Positions 9,224-23,577 of a DNA stretch of 25,649 bases are shown here, in pieces; the stretch's first letter is position 1, and each line of letters starts with the position of its first letter. This DNA comes from a virus, in IMG/VR virus record IMGVR_UViG_3300031758_000513, positions 1-25,649 of that record; one strand, given 5' to 3'. A program made the translations under genes and the position numbers. Below the pieces are notes generated by a model. That model worked only from the letters and a program-made list of their open reading frames with translations, was not told the origin of the DNA and ran no database searches.

Positions 9224-9915
9224 CAAGTCTTCATAATGTAGCAAAGGGCATAGTATGGTGGCAGGTTAGCGTTGTTACCTGAGACACCCTCTGTGCTAAC
9301 TGAGGTGGAAGCAGATATCCCTGTGGTTGAAGTAGTCATGTTACCTATGAACCCAAGGCCATTATTCGGACCAACAAACCATCCTCCACCGTTGTTACCG
9401 GGACCAGTTACAGAGTGAACACCTGCGAGGTGAGTGTGTCCGGGGTCGGTAAGAGAGGTGGTAGCAGTGTGGGCGTGGCTTACCACTACAGCATCTTTAG
9501 AACCACCAGTAGCAGCTACAGCATAAGAATTACCAGCACCGATAACAAACTTATCCCGTAGATCTGGGGTGCTGTTAGAGCCGTTACAGAGTACCCACCC
9601 AGAAGGCACAGAACCCACTGAGCCAGACCAAATCATAATCATACCAGCGGGTACTAGGGCAGCCGTAGCAGCGGCAATAGCAGTGGTTACAAAGGCTGTG
9701 GTGGCTATCTGGGTAGTACTGGTTCCTGCAGAGGCTGTAGCAGCCGCTGGAGTCCCTGTAAAGGTAGGGCTATTTAGGTCAGCCTTGGACGAGATAGCAG
9801 AGGCGATAGCGTTATACTCGGTATCAATCTCTGTACCCTTGATGATCTTGGCTGGGTTGCCAGTGGATAGGCCATCCTTGACAGCAAAGTTAGTAGCTTT
9901 TACATAGTTACTCAT
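9223..9915 (-). CDS. Tail collar domain protein (short tail fibre/tip)
   Basis: A 230-residue fibre-type protein. Residues 1-50 are helical (VKDGLSTGNPAKIIKGTEIDTEYNAIASAI). A phage fibre repeat (PTFTGTPAAATASAGTSTTQIATTAFV) covers about 49-76. The Phage Tail Collar motif spans about 90-127 (PAGMIMIWSGSVGSVPSGWVLCNG then PDLRDKFVIGAG). A histidine-rich tip part (SHAHTATTSLTDPGHTH) lies at about 146-162, where related fibres bind metal along the trimer axis, and the protein ends NNANLPPYYALCYIMKT. Likely a trimeric tail-tip or receptor-contact protein. The ATG overlaps the stabilisation-protein stop (ATGA), with AAGGA upstream. It is the first full gene after the internal promoter at 10086-10114. 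Confidence 0.88.
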   Translation of the reverse strand: MSNYVKATNFAVKDGLSTGNPAKIIKGTEIDTEYNAIASAISSKADLNSPTFTGTPAAATASAGTSTTQIATTAFVTTAIAAATAALVPAGMIMIWSGSVGSVPSGWVLCNGSNSTPDLRDKFVIGAGNSYAVAATGGSKDAVVVSHAHTATTSLTDPGHTHLAGVHSVTGPGNNGGGWFVGPNNGLGFIGNMTTSTTGISASTSVSTEGVSGNNANLPPYYALCYIMKT

Positions 9916-11765
9916 GCTTGTTTTCCTTGTTTAATATATATATCAATCCGCTGGATAGAGATAGGGTTCCCATTGATCTCAGCCTCTAGACCAATCTGCA
10001 TAACAGACCCTGTACCACCAGCCTGTATCTTGAACTTGTCTAGAACAATACCGTCTGAGAACTCAGCAATATTATATTCCCCTATATTATACTCGTAAAC
10101 TACAGCCGTGTCAAGTTTTTTCGTAAAAGCAAAGTAATTTTCATTATAATCGAAGCCCCACTTGACAGCTACGTTTTGATTAGAACCACCAATAACTACA
10201 AATCCAATCTGCTTCATTATCTTTTCAATGGTGGGCTGTTCAAAGTCAAAGTAATTGGTATAGTAGCTAAATCGATACTCAGCCCCATTGTCTGCATGAC
10301 CGTAGTACTTGCCAATGTATCCGGGTTTACCAAGGTATAGGTCTTTAGAGTTAGTTACAATAAAAGATTTTGGTTCGATACTACTCCAAGTGGTAACCCT
10401 AGCTGCACCATCCTGTAGAGGAGTCCTCATGTCAAAACAATATACTGACTTAGTAATTGGCAAGCTAAGAAGGTAGAAGGCATCCCTGTCATAGTAGACA
10501 GACTTGATATTAGCTGCTGTCTCAGAGGCTACGCTAGTCATTAGCTCATCCCGTACATTCTTAGAGATATCCCGCATAGGCAAGGACTTCTCTTGAATAA
10601 CCCGCTGCAGGCTTCTAACCCCAGAATCAGACAAGAAGATAATATCCGTACCAGTACTCTGAACAGAGTCCCTAGCGATACAGCCCACATTAGGGATATA
10701 GTCAGCTAAGGTCAGTGTTGTCACATCGATAGGGTTAGCATAGACAGCAATGTTATTACGACCAAAGATAATAAGGAATCCGTTGTGCGCTGCAATAGCA
10801 ACTATCTTGTCTGTGTTAGGGAATACAGTGTTCAAGGACAGAGAGCCTGAGTCTCCACCTTGGAAGTCTGATCCGTCCAGTAACCTAGTAAAGTAGACCG
10901 TCTGTGGGTCTCCTGCTATGTCTGCTGCCCAGATACGTCCATAAGCTGCTAAAGCGCAGTTAGGGGCGAAGTCACCAACAGAATACCCCAAAGGCATTGA
11001 CCCGATGTCACCGAGCCTCTGGAAGCCGTATGATCCTGTGTGAGAGTGTGGATTAGCAGACGTTGTTACTGTGCTAGTAAGGGCATCAGAGACTGTGTAT
11101 CCAGCACCACCAGTAGTAATCGTTACAGTAGCCACACCTGTACCAGACAAGGTAGCCACAGTAACCGTAGCGGCAGTGGTTCCACCAGACAGAGTAAGGA
11201 TATCTCCGACATTGTAGCCTGATCCAGCAGCAGTTACTGTCAAGCCAGTGATAGCACCGCTAGAGACAGTAGAGACTGTAAAGGTAGCTCCTGTGCCGGG
11301 AGTAGACATACGATGGTAGATCAGCATTGGGTGAGCAGACTGAACTAGATAGGCATGAGGTTCTGCAGCAGAGCCATCACCATAGGGCAGAGCAGCCCCT
11401 TGCCAGTTGTTACCAGTAATCGTGTATGCTAGGTCTGCACTGTTAGCCTGATTACGCACAGCTTTAGTGGTCATAGTCGTAGTACCAGTAAACAGTCTAT
11501 TGTTACCAGCACTAAGGAACTGACTAGATCCGTTGTCAGTTAACTCAAACATAAACTCTACTGGGTTAGCAGCGCCTAAGTCTGTGTTAACTGCTGAGTT
11601 TACAGGTGTCCAGCCTCTACGAGCACCCATACGACCATAGCGGTCAATGACACAGTTGTTAGCCTCTAGCGCAAAGCCAGAAGACAACGATACTGCAGAC
11701 TCTTGGATGTTTAGTCCAAAGAATCCGGGTGCTGCAATACTAGCGGTTTGCGAAGGAGAAGCCAT
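9912..11765 (-). CDS. Tail/DNA stabilisation protein (P22 gp10-like)
   Basis: A 617-residue protein expected to close the head-tail channel below the adaptor and carry the fibres. The N-terminal pattern GFFGLNIQES...LSSGFALEANNCVIDRYGRMGARRGW is typical of the gp10-like stabilisation or nozzle proteins of podoviruses, and the beta-propeller-like middle contains GRIWAADIAGDPQTVYFTRLLDGSDFQ. I start it at ATG 11763-11765, which overlaps the adaptor stop (TAATG). A TTG five codons upstream would extend it within the adaptor gene and looks less likely. Residues about 157-237 are a Gly/Thr-rich beta insertion with two related repeats, apparently foreign to the core fold. An exact sigma70 promoter lies inside the last 200 bases. 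Confidence 0.85.
   Translation of the reverse strand: MASPSQTASIAAPGFFGLNIQESAVSLSSGFALEANNCVIDRYGRMGARRGWTPVNSAVNTDLGAANPVEFMFELTDNGSSQFLSAGNNRLFTGTTTMTTKAVRNQANSADLAYTITGNNWQGAALPYGDGSAAEPHAYLVQSAHPMLIYHRMSTPGTGATFTVSTVSSGAITGLTVTAAGSGYNVGDILTLSGGTTAATVTVATLSGTGVATVTITTGGAGYTVSDALTSTVTTSANPHSHTGSYGFQRLGDIGSMPLGYSVGDFAPNCALAAYGRIWAADIAGDPQTVYFTRLLDGSDFQGGDSGSLSLNTVFPNTDKIVAIAAHNGFLIIFGRNNIAVYANPIDVTTLTLADYIPNVGCIARDSVQSTGTDIIFLSDSGVRSLQRVIQEKSLPMRDISKNVRDELMTSVASETAANIKSVYYDRDAFYLLSLPITKSVYCFDMRTPLQDGAARVTTWSSIEPKSFIVTNSKDLYLGKPGYIGKYYGHADNGAEYRFSYYTNYFDFEQPTIEKIMKQIGFVVIGGSNQNVAVKWGFDYNENYFAFTKKLDTAVVYEYNIGEYNIAEFSDGIVLDKFKIQAGGTGSVMQIGLEAEINGNPISIQRIDIYIKQGKQA
10071..10099 (-). promoter_or_regulatory. 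Possible second promoter, in tandem with the one at 10086
   Basis: On the - strand TATAAT (10071-10076) is preceded by a 17-base spacer and TTTACG (10094-10099), which matches TTGACA at four of six positions. It overlaps the exact promoter just upstream and would start transcription about 15 bases further on. It may be fortuitous, because the two Y-N-I codon runs of the protein generate both TATAAT copies. Confidence 0.3.
10086..10114 (-). promoter_or_regulatory. Exact-consensus sigma70 promoter inside the stabilisation gene
   Basis: On the - strand TTGACA (10109-10114), 17 bases, then TATAAT (10086-10091). Both hexamers are perfect and the spacing is optimal. The expected start is near 10079, about 165 bases upstream of the collar gene start at 9915. 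The sequence lies within codons for DTAVVYEYNIGEYN. It would add transcription of the collar, ejection and lysis genes. Confidence 0.7.
11055..11297 (-). repeat. Inserted beta-repeat segment within stabilisation protein
   Basis: Codons for about residues 157-237 of the 617-residue protein. They contain two related units, GLTVTAAGSGYNVGDILTLSG and VATVTITTGGAGYTVSDALTS, rich in Thr, Gly and Ala. This GSGY-VGD-LT pattern recurs as an inserted module in many phage virion proteins. The flanking sequence (YHRMSTPG before, SHTGSYGFQRLGD after) reads like continuous core fold. Confidence 0.55.
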
Positions 11766-12421
11766 TAGACAGCATCCCAAGTAAATTCATCTGGATAGTG
11801 GTTGCCTTCATTAGCTACATGGTCTGATAAAGAAGTTAAGTATAAACCATAAGCCTCAGAACTTTTTAATCCACCATCTTCACCACGTTCTGCCAATGCT
11901 TTAGCATATGCTAAGAATATAACAGGCTCTGCTGGAACCTTGATCTGAGTGCTATTTAATGTTAGTTCTGCTTGTGGCTTAATGATGTTAAAGTTAAGAA
12001 TATAGTTTCCATTAGGAATAGGATATAGATCTACCTGTGTATCTCCATTAGAATCTACACCGTTAAAGTTATAGTAGCGAGGAGATCCTAGTTCAGGAGC
12101 TTGATTTAGAAACCAATTATTCATGTCACTAGTAGAAGCGTTTTCCATAAACCAATCGCTTGTATCATTTAAAACATCAAAGACTCTAAATCGAATACCA
12201 GCGTCAGTCATAACATAGTTAAACAGGTTAGCTGTAGTAGAAACAGTAAGAGTCTCAGACAGAGCATTCCAGTTATATGCGTCTTCTACTTGTCTCTTAG
12301 CATCGTTAACAAACTTACTAATTAATTTTGAGTAGGTAGTATCATTGACAGAAGTAACCTCGTTCTCACGAAGCCTAATCAACACATCATTGACTAGTTC
12401 TAGATAAGTTTTGTTAGCCAT
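11765..12421 (-). CDS. Head-tail adaptor protein (P22 gp4 / tail tubular A-like)
   Basis: A 218-residue protein starting ANKTYLELVNDVLIRLRENEV, the helical opening common to phage adaptor proteins that sit on the portal ring and receive the tail. It continues with FVNDAKRQVEDAYNWNALS, a beta-rich middle (RYYNFNG...VDLYPIPNGNYILNFNII) and a helical end (EPVIFLAYAKALAERGEDGG). These features match the gp4-like/tail tubular A class by memory. It abuts the next gene (TAA directly followed by ATG upstream) and overlaps the stabilisation gene by one base (TAATG). The order adaptor then stabilisation protein supports the assignment. Confidence 0.8.
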   Translation of the reverse strand: MANKTYLELVNDVLIRLRENEVTSVNDTTYSKLISKFVNDAKRQVEDAYNWNALSETLTVSTTANLFNYVMTDAGIRFRVFDVLNDTSDWFMENASTSDMNNWFLNQAPELGSPRYYNFNGVDSNGDTQVDLYPIPNGNYILNFNIIKPQAELTLNSTQIKVPAEPVIFLAYAKALAERGEDGGLKSSEAYGLYLTSLSDHVANEGNHYPDEFTWDAV

Positions 12422-19157: not shown

Positions 19158-19188
19158 AAAACTCCCCAGCCCTTGTGAGGCTGAGGAG
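19155..19188 (-). terminator. Rho-independent terminator after the major capsid gene
   Basis: On the - strand, arms CTCCTCAGCC and GGCTGGGGAG (19179-19188 and 19162-19171) form a 10-pair stem with one U-G pair and a 7-base loop, followed at once by TTTTCTT. It lies 20 bases past the capsid stop codon. It would limit transcription from the strong capsid promoter into the fibre genes. Confidence 0.8.
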
Positions 19189-19208: not shown

Positions 19209-20153
19209 TTAGGCTGGAACTGCGAGAGCAACAGCGGAGCCGTCACGCAACTCAGCAACACCGTACAGCATATCGCTGGTAAACAGAGTACCAAGATACT
19301 CTTGTTTGTACTGAGTCTGTGAACGAACACCCATTTGCTCGGCTAACACAAATGCGTCTTTGTGTGCCAACAAGCAGATACGGTCTGTGCCAGAAGTACC
19401 AGCAGCAGTGTCAGCGTTGGTGGTAACAAATACCTTAACACCAAACACGTCACCGATTTGACCGTTACGAATTGTGTTGCTAGAACCAGCCTCACCAACA
19501 AATGCCTGCTCAGTGAAACGCTGGATGCTCATCAACGTGTTGCGGCTTGAAGGAGGAACAATCAGGAAACGATCCGTCATCGGAACGTCTTGGTCATCAA
19601 GACGCTGGATTGAACGGCGAATACCTGCCTCGCCAAGAGCAGCAGCGTTAGACGTGCTGGAGTTGTACACCGTTGCGCCAGTCGAACCAATGAAAGCATT
19701 CGTGCTAGCAGCAGCAGTAGCGTAGTCACTCGTACCAGCTACACCACCGTTGACAGTACGACCAAGCTGAATGAGGTCAACGTCAACACGCTTAGCCAAC
19801 GCATAGCCAGCATCGTCCGTGTAGAAGCGGCGCAGTGAAGACAGAGCCTGAACTTCGACAATATCTTCGATCAAGCGGCTGTACTCATAGTGCTTGTTAA
19901 TGTTAACAAGAACTTCTGTCTCAGTTGCAGCAATCAGAGTTACCTGACTCGATGCAGTCTTGACAGCAGCGTCACCACGGGTGGGCTTAGGAATGTGAAG
20001 GACATCACCCTTTTTGCCTTTGAAAGACATTTTAGAGAACAGGTTAGCAGCAACCAAGTTCTTTTTGTAAGCAGCGATGATTTCATCAGACCAAATTTCA
20101 GGGATAAATTTATCCGCTGTTGTTTTTGTTACGTGATCGGTACCAAGAGCCAT
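19209..20153 (-). CDS. Major capsid protein (HK97-fold)
   Basis: A 314-residue shell protein. It opens ALGTDHVTKTTADKFIPEIWSDEIIAAYKKNLVAANLF (quoted in parts: DKFIPEIWSDEI, AYKKNLVAANLF), the standard start of capsid proteins in podovirus and related aquatic phages, then GKKGDVLHIPKP, ALAKRVDVDLIQLG, RSIQRLDDQDVPMTDRFLIVPP and an end YGVAELRDGSAVALAVPA. AGGAG lies 7 bases before the ATG. It sits directly after the scaffold gene and is followed by a terminator, as expected for the most highly made protein. No N-terminal propeptide is obvious and no canonical prohead protease gene lies beside it. Confidence 0.92.
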   Translation of the reverse strand: MALGTDHVTKTTADKFIPEIWSDEIIAAYKKNLVAANLFSKMSFKGKKGDVLHIPKPTRGDAAVKTASSQVTLIAATETEVLVNINKHYEYSRLIEDIVEVQALSSLRRFYTDDAGYALAKRVDVDLIQLGRTVNGGVAGTSDYATAAASTNAFIGSTGATVYNSSTSNAAALGEAGIRRSIQRLDDQDVPMTDRFLIVPPSSRNTLMSIQRFTEQAFVGEAGSSNTIRNGQIGDVFGVKVFVTTNADTAAGTSGTDRICLLAHKDAFVLAEQMGVRSQTQYKQEYLGTLFTSDMLYGVAELRDGSAVALAVPA

Positions 20154-20177: not shown

Positions 20178-20993
20178 TTATTTAACTCGACCCTGAGCGT
20201 ATGCAGCCATAATTTCATCTTGTAGCTGGTAATAACGATCTGGGTCTTCCAGTTGTAAACGGATTAGATCCGCTCTTCGATAGACCTTTGCAGAGGTAGC
20301 ACCAGTATTAGAACCAACATCCACTGTAGCTGACTTGACTGCTGCTTTCTGTGCCGCTTTAATCTCTGGCGCAGGAGCAGAAGCTGTAGGAGCTACGGCT
20401 TTAGGTTTAACATAATTCCAAGTACTAAGAAGTTCTGCTGCAGAATCATAGTCCATATTTGCGTCAGCCGCTGCGTATAAACGCAAACGAACTGGAGAGG
20501 CTTTAACCCACTCAGCAAATTCGGGGTCTCCTACAGTAGACTCAAAGTCAGGAAATTCTGTCTTAAGCCTATTTAATGTTTGCATCCTTTTAATCTCAGC
20601 CGTTTGTTCCTTAGCTTCTCTGACTGCAGGATGGTTCTCTACTGCTTGATTTACTGCCCTCTTCGGATCTTCAAAGAAATCGATCTCGTCTTCTTTTGTG
20701 ACCTCAACTTCTTTCTTAGTGTCGAGTTGTCGCTTGATAAGTTCGTCTGCAAGCTTGCGTACTTCACCAACTTCCTGAGCCTGTCTACCAATTAGCTTCT
20801 CAGCCTCTTGGTGCATCCTGATTATTTCATCAAGACTCTTGCCCTTGTACTTGGTAGGAAGATTCTCCTCTTCAGGAACCACTTCCTGTACGGCTTCAAC
20901 TTGAGGTTCTTCAGCTACTTGCTGAGTCTCTTGCTGAGTAATATCACTTGCTTCAAATAACTCTTCTTGCGTATCGGTAAAAGTTGCAGCCAC
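20178..20993 (-). CDS. Capsid scaffolding protein
   Basis: A 271-residue, highly charged, helical protein. The N-terminal 60 residues are very acidic (EELFEASDITQQETQQVAEE), followed by coiled-coil stretches (LDEIIRMHQEAEKLIGRQAQ, VGEVRKLADELIKRQLDTKK). The basic C-terminus (VYRRADLIRLQLEDPDRYYQ, then AAYAQGRVK) resembles the capsid-binding end of scaffolds in podoviruses. The start is GTG at 20991-20993, with AGGAGG five bases upstream; the overlapping ATG is in another frame. It lies immediately upstream of the major capsid gene with a 24-base gap. No serine protease motif is seen. Confidence 0.85.
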   Translation of the reverse strand: MAATFTDTQEELFEASDITQQETQQVAEEPQVEAVQEVVPEEENLPTKYKGKSLDEIIRMHQEAEKLIGRQAQEVGEVRKLADELIKRQLDTKKEVEVTKEDEIDFFEDPKRAVNQAVENHPAVREAKEQTAEIKRMQTLNRLKTEFPDFESTVGDPEFAEWVKASPVRLRLYAAADANMDYDSAAELLSTWNYVKPKAVAPTASAPAPEIKAAQKAAVKSATVDVGSNTGATSAKVYRRADLIRLQLEDPDRYYQLQDEIMAAYAQGRVK

Positions 20994-21045: not shown

Positions 21046-21279
21046 TCAGCTTTGCTGTTTCTTGTAAGCGACTCTAGTTGCTTCTTCGTGCTTTCTAGCC
21101 CACGCATCACACGCTGAAGGAAACGCACCTGTGATGCCCTCCAGACTGATACGGGGTGACGAGATAATACGAGAAGCTTCATTGCGACAATGTGGACACT
21201 CTATAGAGCGTACCTCATCATCGACCAATTTTTCGGTGAGGTGGTCTTTAACGCACCTGAACTCAAATATCCGTTTCAT
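21046..21279 (-). CDS. Zinc-ribbon protein, FmdB-like
   Basis: A 77-residue protein with C9, H13, C28 and C31 (FRCVKDH, then ECPHC) arranged as a zinc ribbon, followed by SRIISSPRISLEGITGAFPS, a form widespread among small FmdB-type phage proteins. The C-terminal half is a charged helix (DAWARKHEEATRVAYKKQQ). GGGAG lies 7 bases before the ATG, and it overlaps the upstream 80-residue gene by 17 bases. Genes of this kind commonly sit between portal and scaffold genes in podoviruses. The first zinc pair is C-x3-H where FmdB usually has C-x2-C, so the exact metal site is uncertain. Confidence 0.82.
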   Translation of the reverse strand: MKRIFEFRCVKDHLTEKLVDDEVRSIECPHCRNEASRIISSPRISLEGITGAFPSACDAWARKHEEATRVAYKKQQS

Positions 21280-21505
21280 CTGTTAACTCCCTATAGGCTT
21301 CTTCCGAAGTTTGCTTAAGGTTTATTACCCAGTTTAGGATATCTAACTGTCCTTTGGCGTAGTGTAAGTCCTCAACACCAGTCAATCTTTCGATCTTGTT
21401 GTAGGCATCCAGCATTTTCTGAATGTCTTCAAGTAGATCTGTCCATCCTTTTGAGGCCATCATGTCAAACCTAGCCTCATAATATTCCTGAATGTCTTTA
21501 TCCAC
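21263..21505 (-). CDS. Small conserved helical protein, first gene after the capsid promoter
   Basis: An 80-residue acidic helical protein: DKDIQEYYEARFDMMASKGW, TDLLEDIQKMLDAYNKIERL, then GQLDILNWVINLKQTSEEAY. It starts with GTG at 21503-21505, with AGGAG five bases upstream. The form YYEARFDMM.SKGW.DL.ED is common among phages in the portal-scaffold interval, by memory; function unknown. It is the first gene downstream of an exact sigma70 promoter, whose transcript would have a leader of about 40 bases with a small hairpin. It overlaps the zinc-ribbon gene by 17 bases. Confidence 0.8.
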   Translation of the reverse strand: MDKDIQEYYEARFDMMASKGWTDLLEDIQKMLDAYNKIERLTGVEDLHYAKGQLDILNWVINLKQTSEEAYRELTDETDI

Positions 21506-21526
21506 AGTTTCTCCTATCTAGGACTG

Positions 21527-21544
21527 TGTTGTATTTCTACAACA
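21527..21544 (-). promoter_or_regulatory. Palindrome at the expected start of transcription
   Basis: TGTTGTA, four bases, TACAACA: a perfect 7-base inverted repeat. It begins about two bases after the expected start of transcription of the promoter at 21553-21581. It could be an operator or a 5' hairpin protecting the capsid mRNA. Confidence 0.55.
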
Positions 21545-21552
21545 TATAATTT

Positions 21553-21581
21553 ATTATACCATACTTTTCTTGATTTGTCAA
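21553..21581 (-). promoter_or_regulatory. Exact-consensus sigma70 promoter with extended -10, for the capsid genes
   Basis: On the - strand TTGACA (21576-21581), 17 bases, TATAAT (21553-21558), with TGG just before the -10 (extended -10). It lies in the 80-base gap after the portal stop. Expected start near 21546. It would drive the 80-residue, zinc-ribbon, scaffold and capsid genes up to the terminator at 19155-19188. Confidence 0.88.
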
Positions 21582-21585
21582 GTAC

Positions 21586-23577
21586 TTATTGAACTTTTCT
21601 ATTCATCTGAGCTTCGACAATGTTTTCCTTAGTCTCAATCTCTCGTTCCTTTAGGATAAGCTCAGCTACCTTAGCACGGCGCTCAAACTCCCCTTGGCTG
21701 GAACCATCTAAGTTAGCAGACACTGACTGAATAACCTTAGCTCGTAGTTCTTCTGGCATCAACTGGGCTTCGACCATAGTCTTCTGCGCCTTAGCCATTG
21801 CCTCTTGAGCGTCAGCTTGTGACTCTGCTGCTCTAGAGTTAAGCTCGTTAATCTGCGCCTGAACCAGTTGAATCTGAGCCTGCATCTGAGCTTGTTGCAT
21901 AGCCTGAGCTTCAGGGTTAGGCTGGTTCATCTGGTCTAGGGCTGCCGCAAGCTCTTCCTTATTGGACAGACTAGAGCCTTTGATGATACCTTTTAGGACT
22001 AGCGGCAGTACAGGGCTATCAGGACCAAGGGTTTGCAAGAGTCCAATGAACTGTTGCTGCTCATACTCCCTAGCTACCATGCCAAGGGTGGATGCAGGAG
22101 TAAACCTAAAGTCCTTAGACGGGTAACGCTCTGGGTCAAACTGCATATAGCGGTAGGCTACCTTCTTAATCAGAGGAATCAAGAAGTCATCTTGGAAGTT
22201 CATCAGCGCCTGCTTGTTCTTCTTAATGATAGAAGACATAGCCAAGGACATAGAAGCTCCACCAGCCTCTCCCGCAGCTACTGAGCGAGTCATAGCTTGA
22301 CTATCTAACGTGCCCGTAGCCTGCAGCAACATAGTCTCAAACTCTTTAGCAGTAGAGATGTTACCTGCGTCAGTAGATCCAAACTTAAACGGAAAGAGGA
22401 TCTCGTTAGGATTGCCGTTGGTAAGCAGGGTCTTTCCGGGTTGTACCTTATAAGATACGCCACGAGGTAGTCTTGTAGCGTCCGCTGCCATCATAGGGGC
22501 CGTAGTCAGTGCTAAAGAGTCCAGATGACTACGGAGTTGGGCATCAATAGCTTTCTGCATATTGTAGCCCTTTTGCACGGTTCCCATACCCACTAACCTA
22601 CCTGATACCTTCTCAGGTACATAGGTTACGATAGGACGGTCTTTCATCATGTATGGGTTGGCTTCTGCCTTGAGCAGGTATTGCCCGTTAGCAATAACAA
22701 CTACAGCCTCAACCATGTCTGAATACTTATCTGCATCGCTATCTTCTGGGAACAGGTCTTCTACTTCACCACCTTCGTTCTCTAACTGCTCCAGATACTC
22801 ACGAGGAACTAGCCCGTAGTAGCGAAGGACTCGTACTTTATCTTCTTGGTAAAGTGAGTCCAGTTGATTTGGGATGAGATCAGCGTCACTAAACTCAGGA
22901 CCAATATTAACCTTTCGATAGATTCCATCTTCGATGCCTTTAACTACTTTAAATAAACTTGTGTACTCTTCAACGGCTACACCAAGGCAATCATCTATTG
23001 TCTCAGAGTTTGGATCCCATATAAAGTTACGAGGATGCACCGACTTAACAGGAACAGATACACGCTCAGCTTCTATAACTCCAATAGCAGCACCAGTCCC
23101 ATCAGGCATTGGCTGCATCGCTGGCTGTAATTCAACTGTAGATTTAATTTGAACCTCAGCTATACCAAGGCCAAAGACTTCAGCGTTACGATTAACCTCT
23201 GCCCAAGTCTTATCTACCTTGTCTTTCTTTAGGTCATCGTGAAGCTGGGTCTTTACCATCTCGATGTCCATCTCTTGCTGGTCAGCAGCATCATCTTCCA
23301 TCTCAAAGAACTCTCCACGACCAGTGGTGGCTTCAATGATCTCTGATGTTTTATTCTCTACCGCCTGACGGATAGCTGGAGATACAAGTCTACTGCGCTC
23401 TGAGTCACGAGTCTTGTCTTCGTCAGACCATACGCCGTAATAGAGGCGCTCGTACTCATCCCACTTAGCCTGATAGTTTGTATCACGGTATTCTTTCCAC
23501 CGATCACAATGATCAATAATAAAAGCTACTAGCTCTTTATCTGATTCAGATACTGGGTCTTCTTGAAAGTCACTCAT
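21586..23577 (-). CDS. Portal protein (P22-type)
   Basis: A 663-residue ring protein forming the DNA entry vertex. The start KELVAFIIDHCDRWKEYRD followed by KWDEYERLYYGVWSDEDKTR and SRLVSPAIRQAVENKTSEI is characteristic of podovirus portals of this class. Further marks are SVHPRNFIWDPNSETIDDC and MTRSVAAGEAGGASMSLAMS. The C-terminal 130 residues are a Gln/Ala-rich coiled coil (QAQMQAQIQLVQAQINELNS), which would form a barrel into the capsid. The ATG overlaps the upstream HExxH gene by four bases (ATGA). It is followed by the strongest promoter of the window. Confidence 0.92.
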   Translation of the reverse strand: MSDFQEDPVSESDKELVAFIIDHCDRWKEYRDTNYQAKWDEYERLYYGVWSDEDKTRDSERSRLVSPAIRQAVENKTSEIIEATTGRGEFFEMEDDAADQQEMDIEMVKTQLHDDLKKDKVDKTWAEVNRNAEVFGLGIAEVQIKSTVELQPAMQPMPDGTGAAIGVIEAERVSVPVKSVHPRNFIWDPNSETIDDCLGVAVEEYTSLFKVVKGIEDGIYRKVNIGPEFSDADLIPNQLDSLYQEDKVRVLRYYGLVPREYLEQLENEGGEVEDLFPEDSDADKYSDMVEAVVVIANGQYLLKAEANPYMMKDRPIVTYVPEKVSGRLVGMGTVQKGYNMQKAIDAQLRSHLDSLALTTAPMMAADATRLPRGVSYKVQPGKTLLTNGNPNEILFPFKFGSTDAGNISTAKEFETMLLQATGTLDSQAMTRSVAAGEAGGASMSLAMSSIIKKNKQALMNFQDDFLIPLIKKVAYRYMQFDPERYPSKDFRFTPASTLGMVAREYEQQQFIGLLQTLGPDSPVLPLVLKGIIKGSSLSNKEELAAALDQMNQPNPEAQAMQQAQMQAQIQLVQAQINELNSRAAESQADAQEAMAKAQKTMVEAQLMPEELRAKVIQSVSANLDGSSQGEFERRAKVAELILKEREIETKENIVEAQMNRKVQ

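Follow-up and report, generated by a model that had tools for sequence, protein, structure and literature searches.

We analysed, from sequence alone, a 25,649-nucleotide stretch of viral DNA, which we call the window (IMG/VR record IMGVR_UViG_3300031758_000513, positions 1 to 25,649). The features that concern us are all on the minus strand. The portal gene (21586-23577; phrog_1216) ends just before the -35 hexamer of a promoter, and behind the promoter lies a compact unit: an 80-amino-acid (80-aa) gene with a GTG start (21263-21505), a 77-aa gene (21046-21279) that weakly matches a zinc ribbon and overlaps the 80-aa gene by 17 nt, the gene for the head scaffolding protein (20178-20993; phrog_19777, 5.6e-05), the gene for the major capsid protein (19209-20153; phrog_267, 6e-48), and a strong intrinsic terminator (19162-19188). 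Two hairpins lie at the start of this unit. Hairpin 1 is a palindrome at the start site of transcription, and hairpin 2 encloses the start codon of the 80-aa gene. We think it probable that this region starts both the transcription and the translation of a self-contained capsid unit, by the steps that we propose below, in a lineage of podoviruses that is organized like T7 but lacks a T7-type polymerase.

An earlier note on this DNA, which was made from the sequence alone, placed the promoter in the only sizeable gap of the head block. This is almost correct: the promoter's gap measures 80 nt, but there is also a gap of 98 nt after the capsid gene, and the terminator is inside it. This terminator, which the note had not mentioned, has a G+C-rich stem and a T run, and it is conserved as a structure, as an intrinsic terminator should be. 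Nearly all of the relatives that have the capsid gene also carry, in the corresponding position, a stem that resembles a terminator, and these stems vary on both sides in a compensatory way (for example, CTCCTCAGCC/GGCTGGGGAG versus CTCCCTAGAC/GTCTAGGGAG).

The first gene of the unit is predicted to encode a four-helix protein. The model is confident (pLDDT 88.5), and it has no match among solved structures at E <= 0.001. It has no recognised nucleic-acid-binding fold, and its only relatives are unnamed viral proteins.

A promoter of the sigma70 type

The promoter consists of TTGACA (21576-21581), a 17-nt spacer that ends in TGG, and TATAAT (21558-21553); the extended -10 element is TGGTATAAT (21553-21561). 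The predicted transcription start is at about 21546. Two hexamers about 17 nt apart, with TGn before the -10, are the hallmarks of an extended -10 sigma70 promoter, and the sequence, which lies on the minus strand behind the portal gene, is as the earlier note had described it. We call this a putative host sigma70 promoter from its match to the consensus.

Exact matches to TTGACA-(15-19)-TATAAT should be rare. The window has 2, versus 0.02 expected from dinucleotide shuffles. The second match, with a spacing of 17 nt, is at 10114-10086 (minus strand) and had gone unnoticed. It lies inside a tail gene (ORF 9912-11780), it lacks the TG, and it recurs in three relatives, where the site is kept only within the same reading frame. 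For these reasons we rejected it as a promoter; it is best read as coding sequence. This site is a caution against promoter scans that rely on hexamers alone.

Conservation of the promoter in relatives

We collected 80 related loci from IMG/VR via the portal protein and inspected 79 of them. (The window's record is a 25.6-kb fragment, and many of the relatives are short contigs.) The earlier note had suggested a search for the promoter in related genomes. We found it within 150 nt of the portal match at 62 of the 79 loci, across a large lineage of uncultured podoviruses, and it is also present at some loci whose portal identity is about 60% or less. At three loci (L018, L047, and L063) an extra gene lies between the portal gene and the promoter, and the promoter still adjoins the 80-aa gene. 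Similarly, a promoter that scores at least 11 of 13 precedes 55 of the 78 distinct starts that we compared for the 80-aa gene. The leader TGTTGTAGAAATACAACACAGTCC is found exactly in 73 contigs, and all 47 of the distinct contexts that we inspected run into the 80-aa gene, either intact or broken.

Fifteen diverged relatives provide a further comparison. Their -10 hexamers are identical, their -35 hexamers are all TTGACA or TTGACT, and the spacer varies. The start region AGGAGAAACTGTG is also identical in all of them, while just 7% of the portal gene's four-fold sites there are invariant. Because the promoter is conserved where neighbouring synonymous sites of the portal gene vary, we exclude a chance match, in agreement with the earlier note.

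Some of the relatives have unusual arrangements. At L209 and L199, just 6-9 nt separate the end of the -10 from the ATG that opens the 80-aa gene, so in this clade the mRNA for the first gene of the capsid unit would be leaderless or nearly so. At L207 and L299, the TATAAT of a good promoter overlaps this ATG (TATAATG), so transcripts from that promoter could not contain that start codon. Between the portal gene and the 80-aa gene, L050 to L054 have a second TTGACA with a degenerate -10 directly after the main promoter, followed by a separate GGGTGG/CCACCC stem-loop; these are possible tandem promoters with another leader hairpin. Between the same two genes, L041 and L300 lack the promoter and hairpin 1 as well as some of hairpin 2's 5' arm, which may reflect a deletion or an assembly fault. 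Finally, a 46-kb contig (IMGVR_UViG_3300046779_000201; loci L010 and L030) carries two portal genes, which are 94% and 80% identical to the window's portal, and two copies of the promoter and leader, towards its two ends. It could be two phages that were joined during assembly or a real duplication.

A lineage apparently without a T7-type polymerase

The earlier note proposed that the capsid genes are transcribed from a host-type promoter without a phage polymerase. The conservation of the promoter supports this, and so does the gene content: we did not find T7-type RNA polymerase (PF00940) in nine relatives of 36-39 kb, and our positive control, T7 itself, was detected at 1e-110. The single-subunit polymerase that marks the Autographiviridae is thus absent from these nine relatives, the window itself being a fragment of 25.6 kb. 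A near-identical record (G001) encodes a helicase-primase, a family A DNA polymerase, and an exonuclease-like protein.

The note also described the promoter as lying inside a late operon. It does head the capsid unit, but its sequence is not in itself "late." The same type of promoter fronts the terS-like/terminase, replication, ssb-like, and ribonucleotide reductase units, and because it precedes replication genes, it does not look specifically late. More broadly, replication, nucleotide, terminase, and capsid units all have sigma70-type promoters, so the hexamers do not separate early from late genes. In the window, the ribonucleotide reductase gene (166-2055) is on the strand opposite to the structural genes, and in relatives a promoter of the capsid-promoter type lies upstream of it.

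The group is widespread, and none of the cultured phages is closely related to it. Searches with the DNA or with the 80-aa protein found no close relatives among cultured phages, and the nearest cultured phages have portal proteins that are just 23-25% identical. A search of bacterial genomes, which might have pointed to a host, found no relatives either, and the three genomes that we examined had no tRNA genes that could have served as a clue to it.

The hairpin at the start site

Hairpin 1, TGTTGTA-GAAA-TACAACA (21527-21544), begins at about +3 and is the perfect 7+7 inverted repeat that the earlier note reported. That note suggested that the palindrome might be either an mRNA hairpin or an operator. 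The first suggestion stands in part. As RNA, the palindrome folds with -5.9 kcal/mol (z = -5.2 relative to shuffles), and it is strictly conserved where it occurs: eight variants keep the outer pairs, the loop varies, and most of the changes in the stem, at positions 13 and 17, give G-U pairs that keep the stem. There is a single two-sided change, at the inner pair (L298). On the other hand, the covariation is not significant, as the pair counts of the eight variants are no higher than in shuffles. Hairpin 1 is most likely a 5'-terminal stem that would protect the message from 5'-end-dependent decay.

As an operator, the 18-nt palindrome would be bound at +3 to +20 by a phage or host repressor that silences the capsid promoter early. 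The half-sites TGTTG/CAACA are indeed nearly invariant around a variable centre among the eight variants, as might be expected of an operator. Nevertheless, we consider this improbable. The palindrome is limited to some clades, and most lack it, whereas the promoter is lineage-wide. Three variants have a G at position 13, which preserves a U-G pair in the RNA but breaks the symmetry of the DNA. The conservation of the last CA can also be explained by its being shared with hairpin 2. Also, there was no repressor candidate among the few non-structural proteins that we scanned, and nothing else points to a repressor.

A hairpin on the start codon of the capsid unit

Hairpin 2, CACAG-UCC-UAGAUA-GGA-GAAA-CUGUG (21503-21528), overlaps the palindrome by 2 nt and was not noticed in the earlier note. 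Its scheme is S1-UCC-loop-GGA-NAAA-S1'. (Folding favours U6-A11 over U6-A15, which gives a UCC/GGA stem and an NAAA bulge; the pair counts are the same.) The apical stem holds the Shine-Dalgarno sequence GGA (21512-21514), and the 3' arm contains the GUG start codon (21503-21505). Hence a conserved helix covers the signals for translation initiation, which is what defines a start-codon-occluding hairpin. By itself, hairpin 2 is of moderate stability (-3 to -8 kcal/mol). In the context of the leader, its mean predicted occupancy is about 0.5, with values from near 0 to 1 depending on the sequence, so alone it would not lock the start site tightly. In the window's clade, hairpins 1 and 2 compete for 2 nt.

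Hairpins at start sites have a precedent in phages (PMC3014915), and at gene e of T4 the late promoters are placed so that late transcripts omit the hairpin's 5' arm (PMC3014915). If timing worked in this way here, then read-through transcripts would be silenced and transcripts from the promoter, which would lack the 5' arm, would be translated. We find this the least likely of the explanations that we weighed. The predicted start at about 21546 is upstream of all of hairpin 2, whose 5' arm begins at 21528, so transcripts from the promoter would include both arms.

The arms of hairpin 2 covary. By scanning with an alignment built on the 80-aa protein, we collected diverse relatives of its gene. 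Because the automatic full-length alignment misplaced the 5' arms, we removed the variable loop before counting pairs in the arms. The arms differ yet pair: we found UUAAC/GUUAA, UAAUC/GAUUA, AUAGU/ACUAU, CAUAG/CUAUG, GUUUC/GAAAC, CAUUC/GAAUG, and others. If the arms are swapped among the 14 distinct combinations, then a mean of 44.6 of 84 pairs form, versus 79 observed, and none of 100,000 shuffles reached 79. Similarly, across 23 distinct sequences of the hairpin, 96% of pairs are standard, versus 67% when shuffled, and there are 56 cells with two-sided changes, versus 18. These counts were not reached in any of 500 shuffles, and controls in which the arms were slid collapse.

In this set of 23 sequences, neither UCC/GGA nor the bulge's AAA varies, partly by selection, as both served to find the set. 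The occurrence of the motif is the independent test. The 80-aa gene has 78 distinct starts in our collection, and 51 of them carry the motif, versus 9 of 9,118 other ORF starts. In whole records, it occurs once, at the start site, with two exceptions: G006 has one extra weak match, and G002, which carries two copies of the capsid unit, has two. Hairpin 2 matches no Rfam family above the gathering threshold, and in the open-access literature we found no description of this element or of a start-codon hairpin in this lineage.

The position of hairpin 2 relative to the start codon comes in two registers. In one set of clades, which includes the window's, the 3' arm either contains the start codon or ends just before it. 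In another (L245, L256, L211, L069, L078, and L059, and with one mismatch L055, L058, and L051), the apical loop holds the start codon, and the 3' arm falls within codons 3 to 5, so that the untranslated arm covaries with codon 4. At L063 and L225, a change of the start codon from GTG to ATG is matched by a C to T change in the opposite arm. At L263 and L292, an ORF that resembles a GIY-YIG endonuclease (identified by eye) lies between the promoter and hairpin 2, and the hairpin remains on the start codon. This arrangement links hairpin 2 with the start of translation and not with the promoter.

These observations bear on whether hairpins 1 and 2 might together be a put-like RNA signal for antitermination, acting on the transcribing polymerase. 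It is true that two adjacent stem-loops lie right behind the promoter of a phage that has no polymerase of its own. But hairpin 2 follows the start codon and not the promoter (L263 and L292), and its register shifts with the start codon; hairpin 1 is absent from most clades; and the unit is closed by a conserved terminator that should work. We consider antitermination to be very unlikely.

At L257 (2037-2511), an HNH-like ORF opens with hairpin 2 and with the 80-aa gene's codons MDKELQ; it looks as though the translation start of the capsid unit had been captured by an endonuclease gene. Hairpin 2 is missing from several clades, while the promoter and the gene are present: at L199 and L209 (which are near-leaderless), in a group with L228, L266, and L270, and at L288 and L232.

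How the capsid unit might be controlled

Host-sigma transcription combined with translational control is, in our view, the most likely explanation for the capsid unit. The host RNA polymerase with its housekeeping sigma factor would initiate at about 21546, and the transcript would span the 80-aa gene, the zinc-ribbon gene, the scaffold gene, and the major capsid gene and end at the terminator (19188-19162). Hairpin 1, at the extreme 5' end of the leader, would shield the message from decay. Hairpin 2 would sequester the Shine-Dalgarno sequence and start codon of the 80-aa gene, and would either lower its translation or let a factor control it. As the 80-aa and 77-aa genes overlap by 17 nt, translational coupling could pass this effect on to the downstream genes. 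Matched mutations have preserved hairpin 2 in distant relatives, which suggests that translation is a further point of control over capsid output.

We are less sure what kind of control this would be. One possibility, which we take seriously although we would not bet on it, is that an ordinary strong host-sigma promoter is paired with a 5' stabilizing hairpin and that hairpin 2 merely tunes translation down to a fixed level. Its moderate stability and partial predicted occupancy are consistent with this, and some clades manage without it. On the other hand, two-sided changes recur in the arms while the pairing persists, and both registers retain UCC/GGA and the NAAA bulge. This seems to be more constraint than a mere brake would need.

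Alternatively, and also tentatively, hairpin 2 may be a timing device for the capsid: a phage protein would bind the GGA-NAAA hairpin, and the timing would be set after transcription, in a lineage in which early-type and late-type units alike have one constitutive kind of host-type promoter. The invariant UCC/GGA and NAAA bulge in a stem that otherwise covaries freely look like a site of protein recognition, that is, a translational operator, although this is only suggestive. Moderate stability and a predicted occupancy of about 0.5 would also fit a structure that a bound factor adjusts better than one that stays locked. Only its position makes the 80-aa four-helix protein a candidate for the binder.

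T7-like phages without a polymerase must time and dose the synthesis of capsid through the host polymerase alone. A covarying hairpin on the start codon of the capsid unit, which much of the lineage keeps and Rfam lacks, offers a concrete and testable post-transcriptional answer. Hairpin 2 can also serve as an RNA signature of the lineage in metagenomes. If it is a timing device that is bound by a protein, then it would represent a new family of translational operators in double-stranded DNA phages.

Comparison with known systems

In the capsid region of T7, gene 10 lies between the promoter phi10 and the terminator T-phi, and T7 uses its own polymerase and promoters. The window's lineage is similar to T7 in genome organization and size, and it also has an extra promoter before the capsid gene and a terminator immediately after that gene. 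Given this layout of promoter, capsid gene, and terminator, the unit resembles the T7 arrangement with a host-type promoter: unlike in T7, the promoter is of the sigma70 type, and PF00940 was not found in nine relatives.

The replicase operator of MS2 is a start-site hairpin of an RNA phage, and its ligand is the coat protein. Hairpin 2 resembles it in architecture: the upper stem includes Shine-Dalgarno bases, the 3' arm carries the start codon, and there is a bulge. The differences are that our candidate is from a double-stranded DNA phage and that its bulge is 4 nt (NAAA) and on the 3' side.

The pelagiphage Skadi-1 is another podovirus without a phage RNA polymerase, with predicted sigma70 promoters (PMC10504331). 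It is like the window's lineage in both respects. However, the promoters reported for Skadi-1 are near replication genes, and terminators were not found there (PMC10504331), whereas here a promoter heads the capsid unit and a terminator is present.

Finally, hairpins at translation initiation sites are described for T4 genes e, soc, 49, and I-TevI and for mobE of phage Aeh1 (PMC3014915). As in those cases, a hairpin in a phage mRNA sequesters the Shine-Dalgarno sequence and/or the start codon. Unlike at T4 gene e, the promoter here is upstream of the entire hairpin, and in contrast to these T4 and Aeh1 hairpins, hairpin 2 is on a gene that opens a capsid unit and has an invariant apical UCC/GGA and NAAA bulge.
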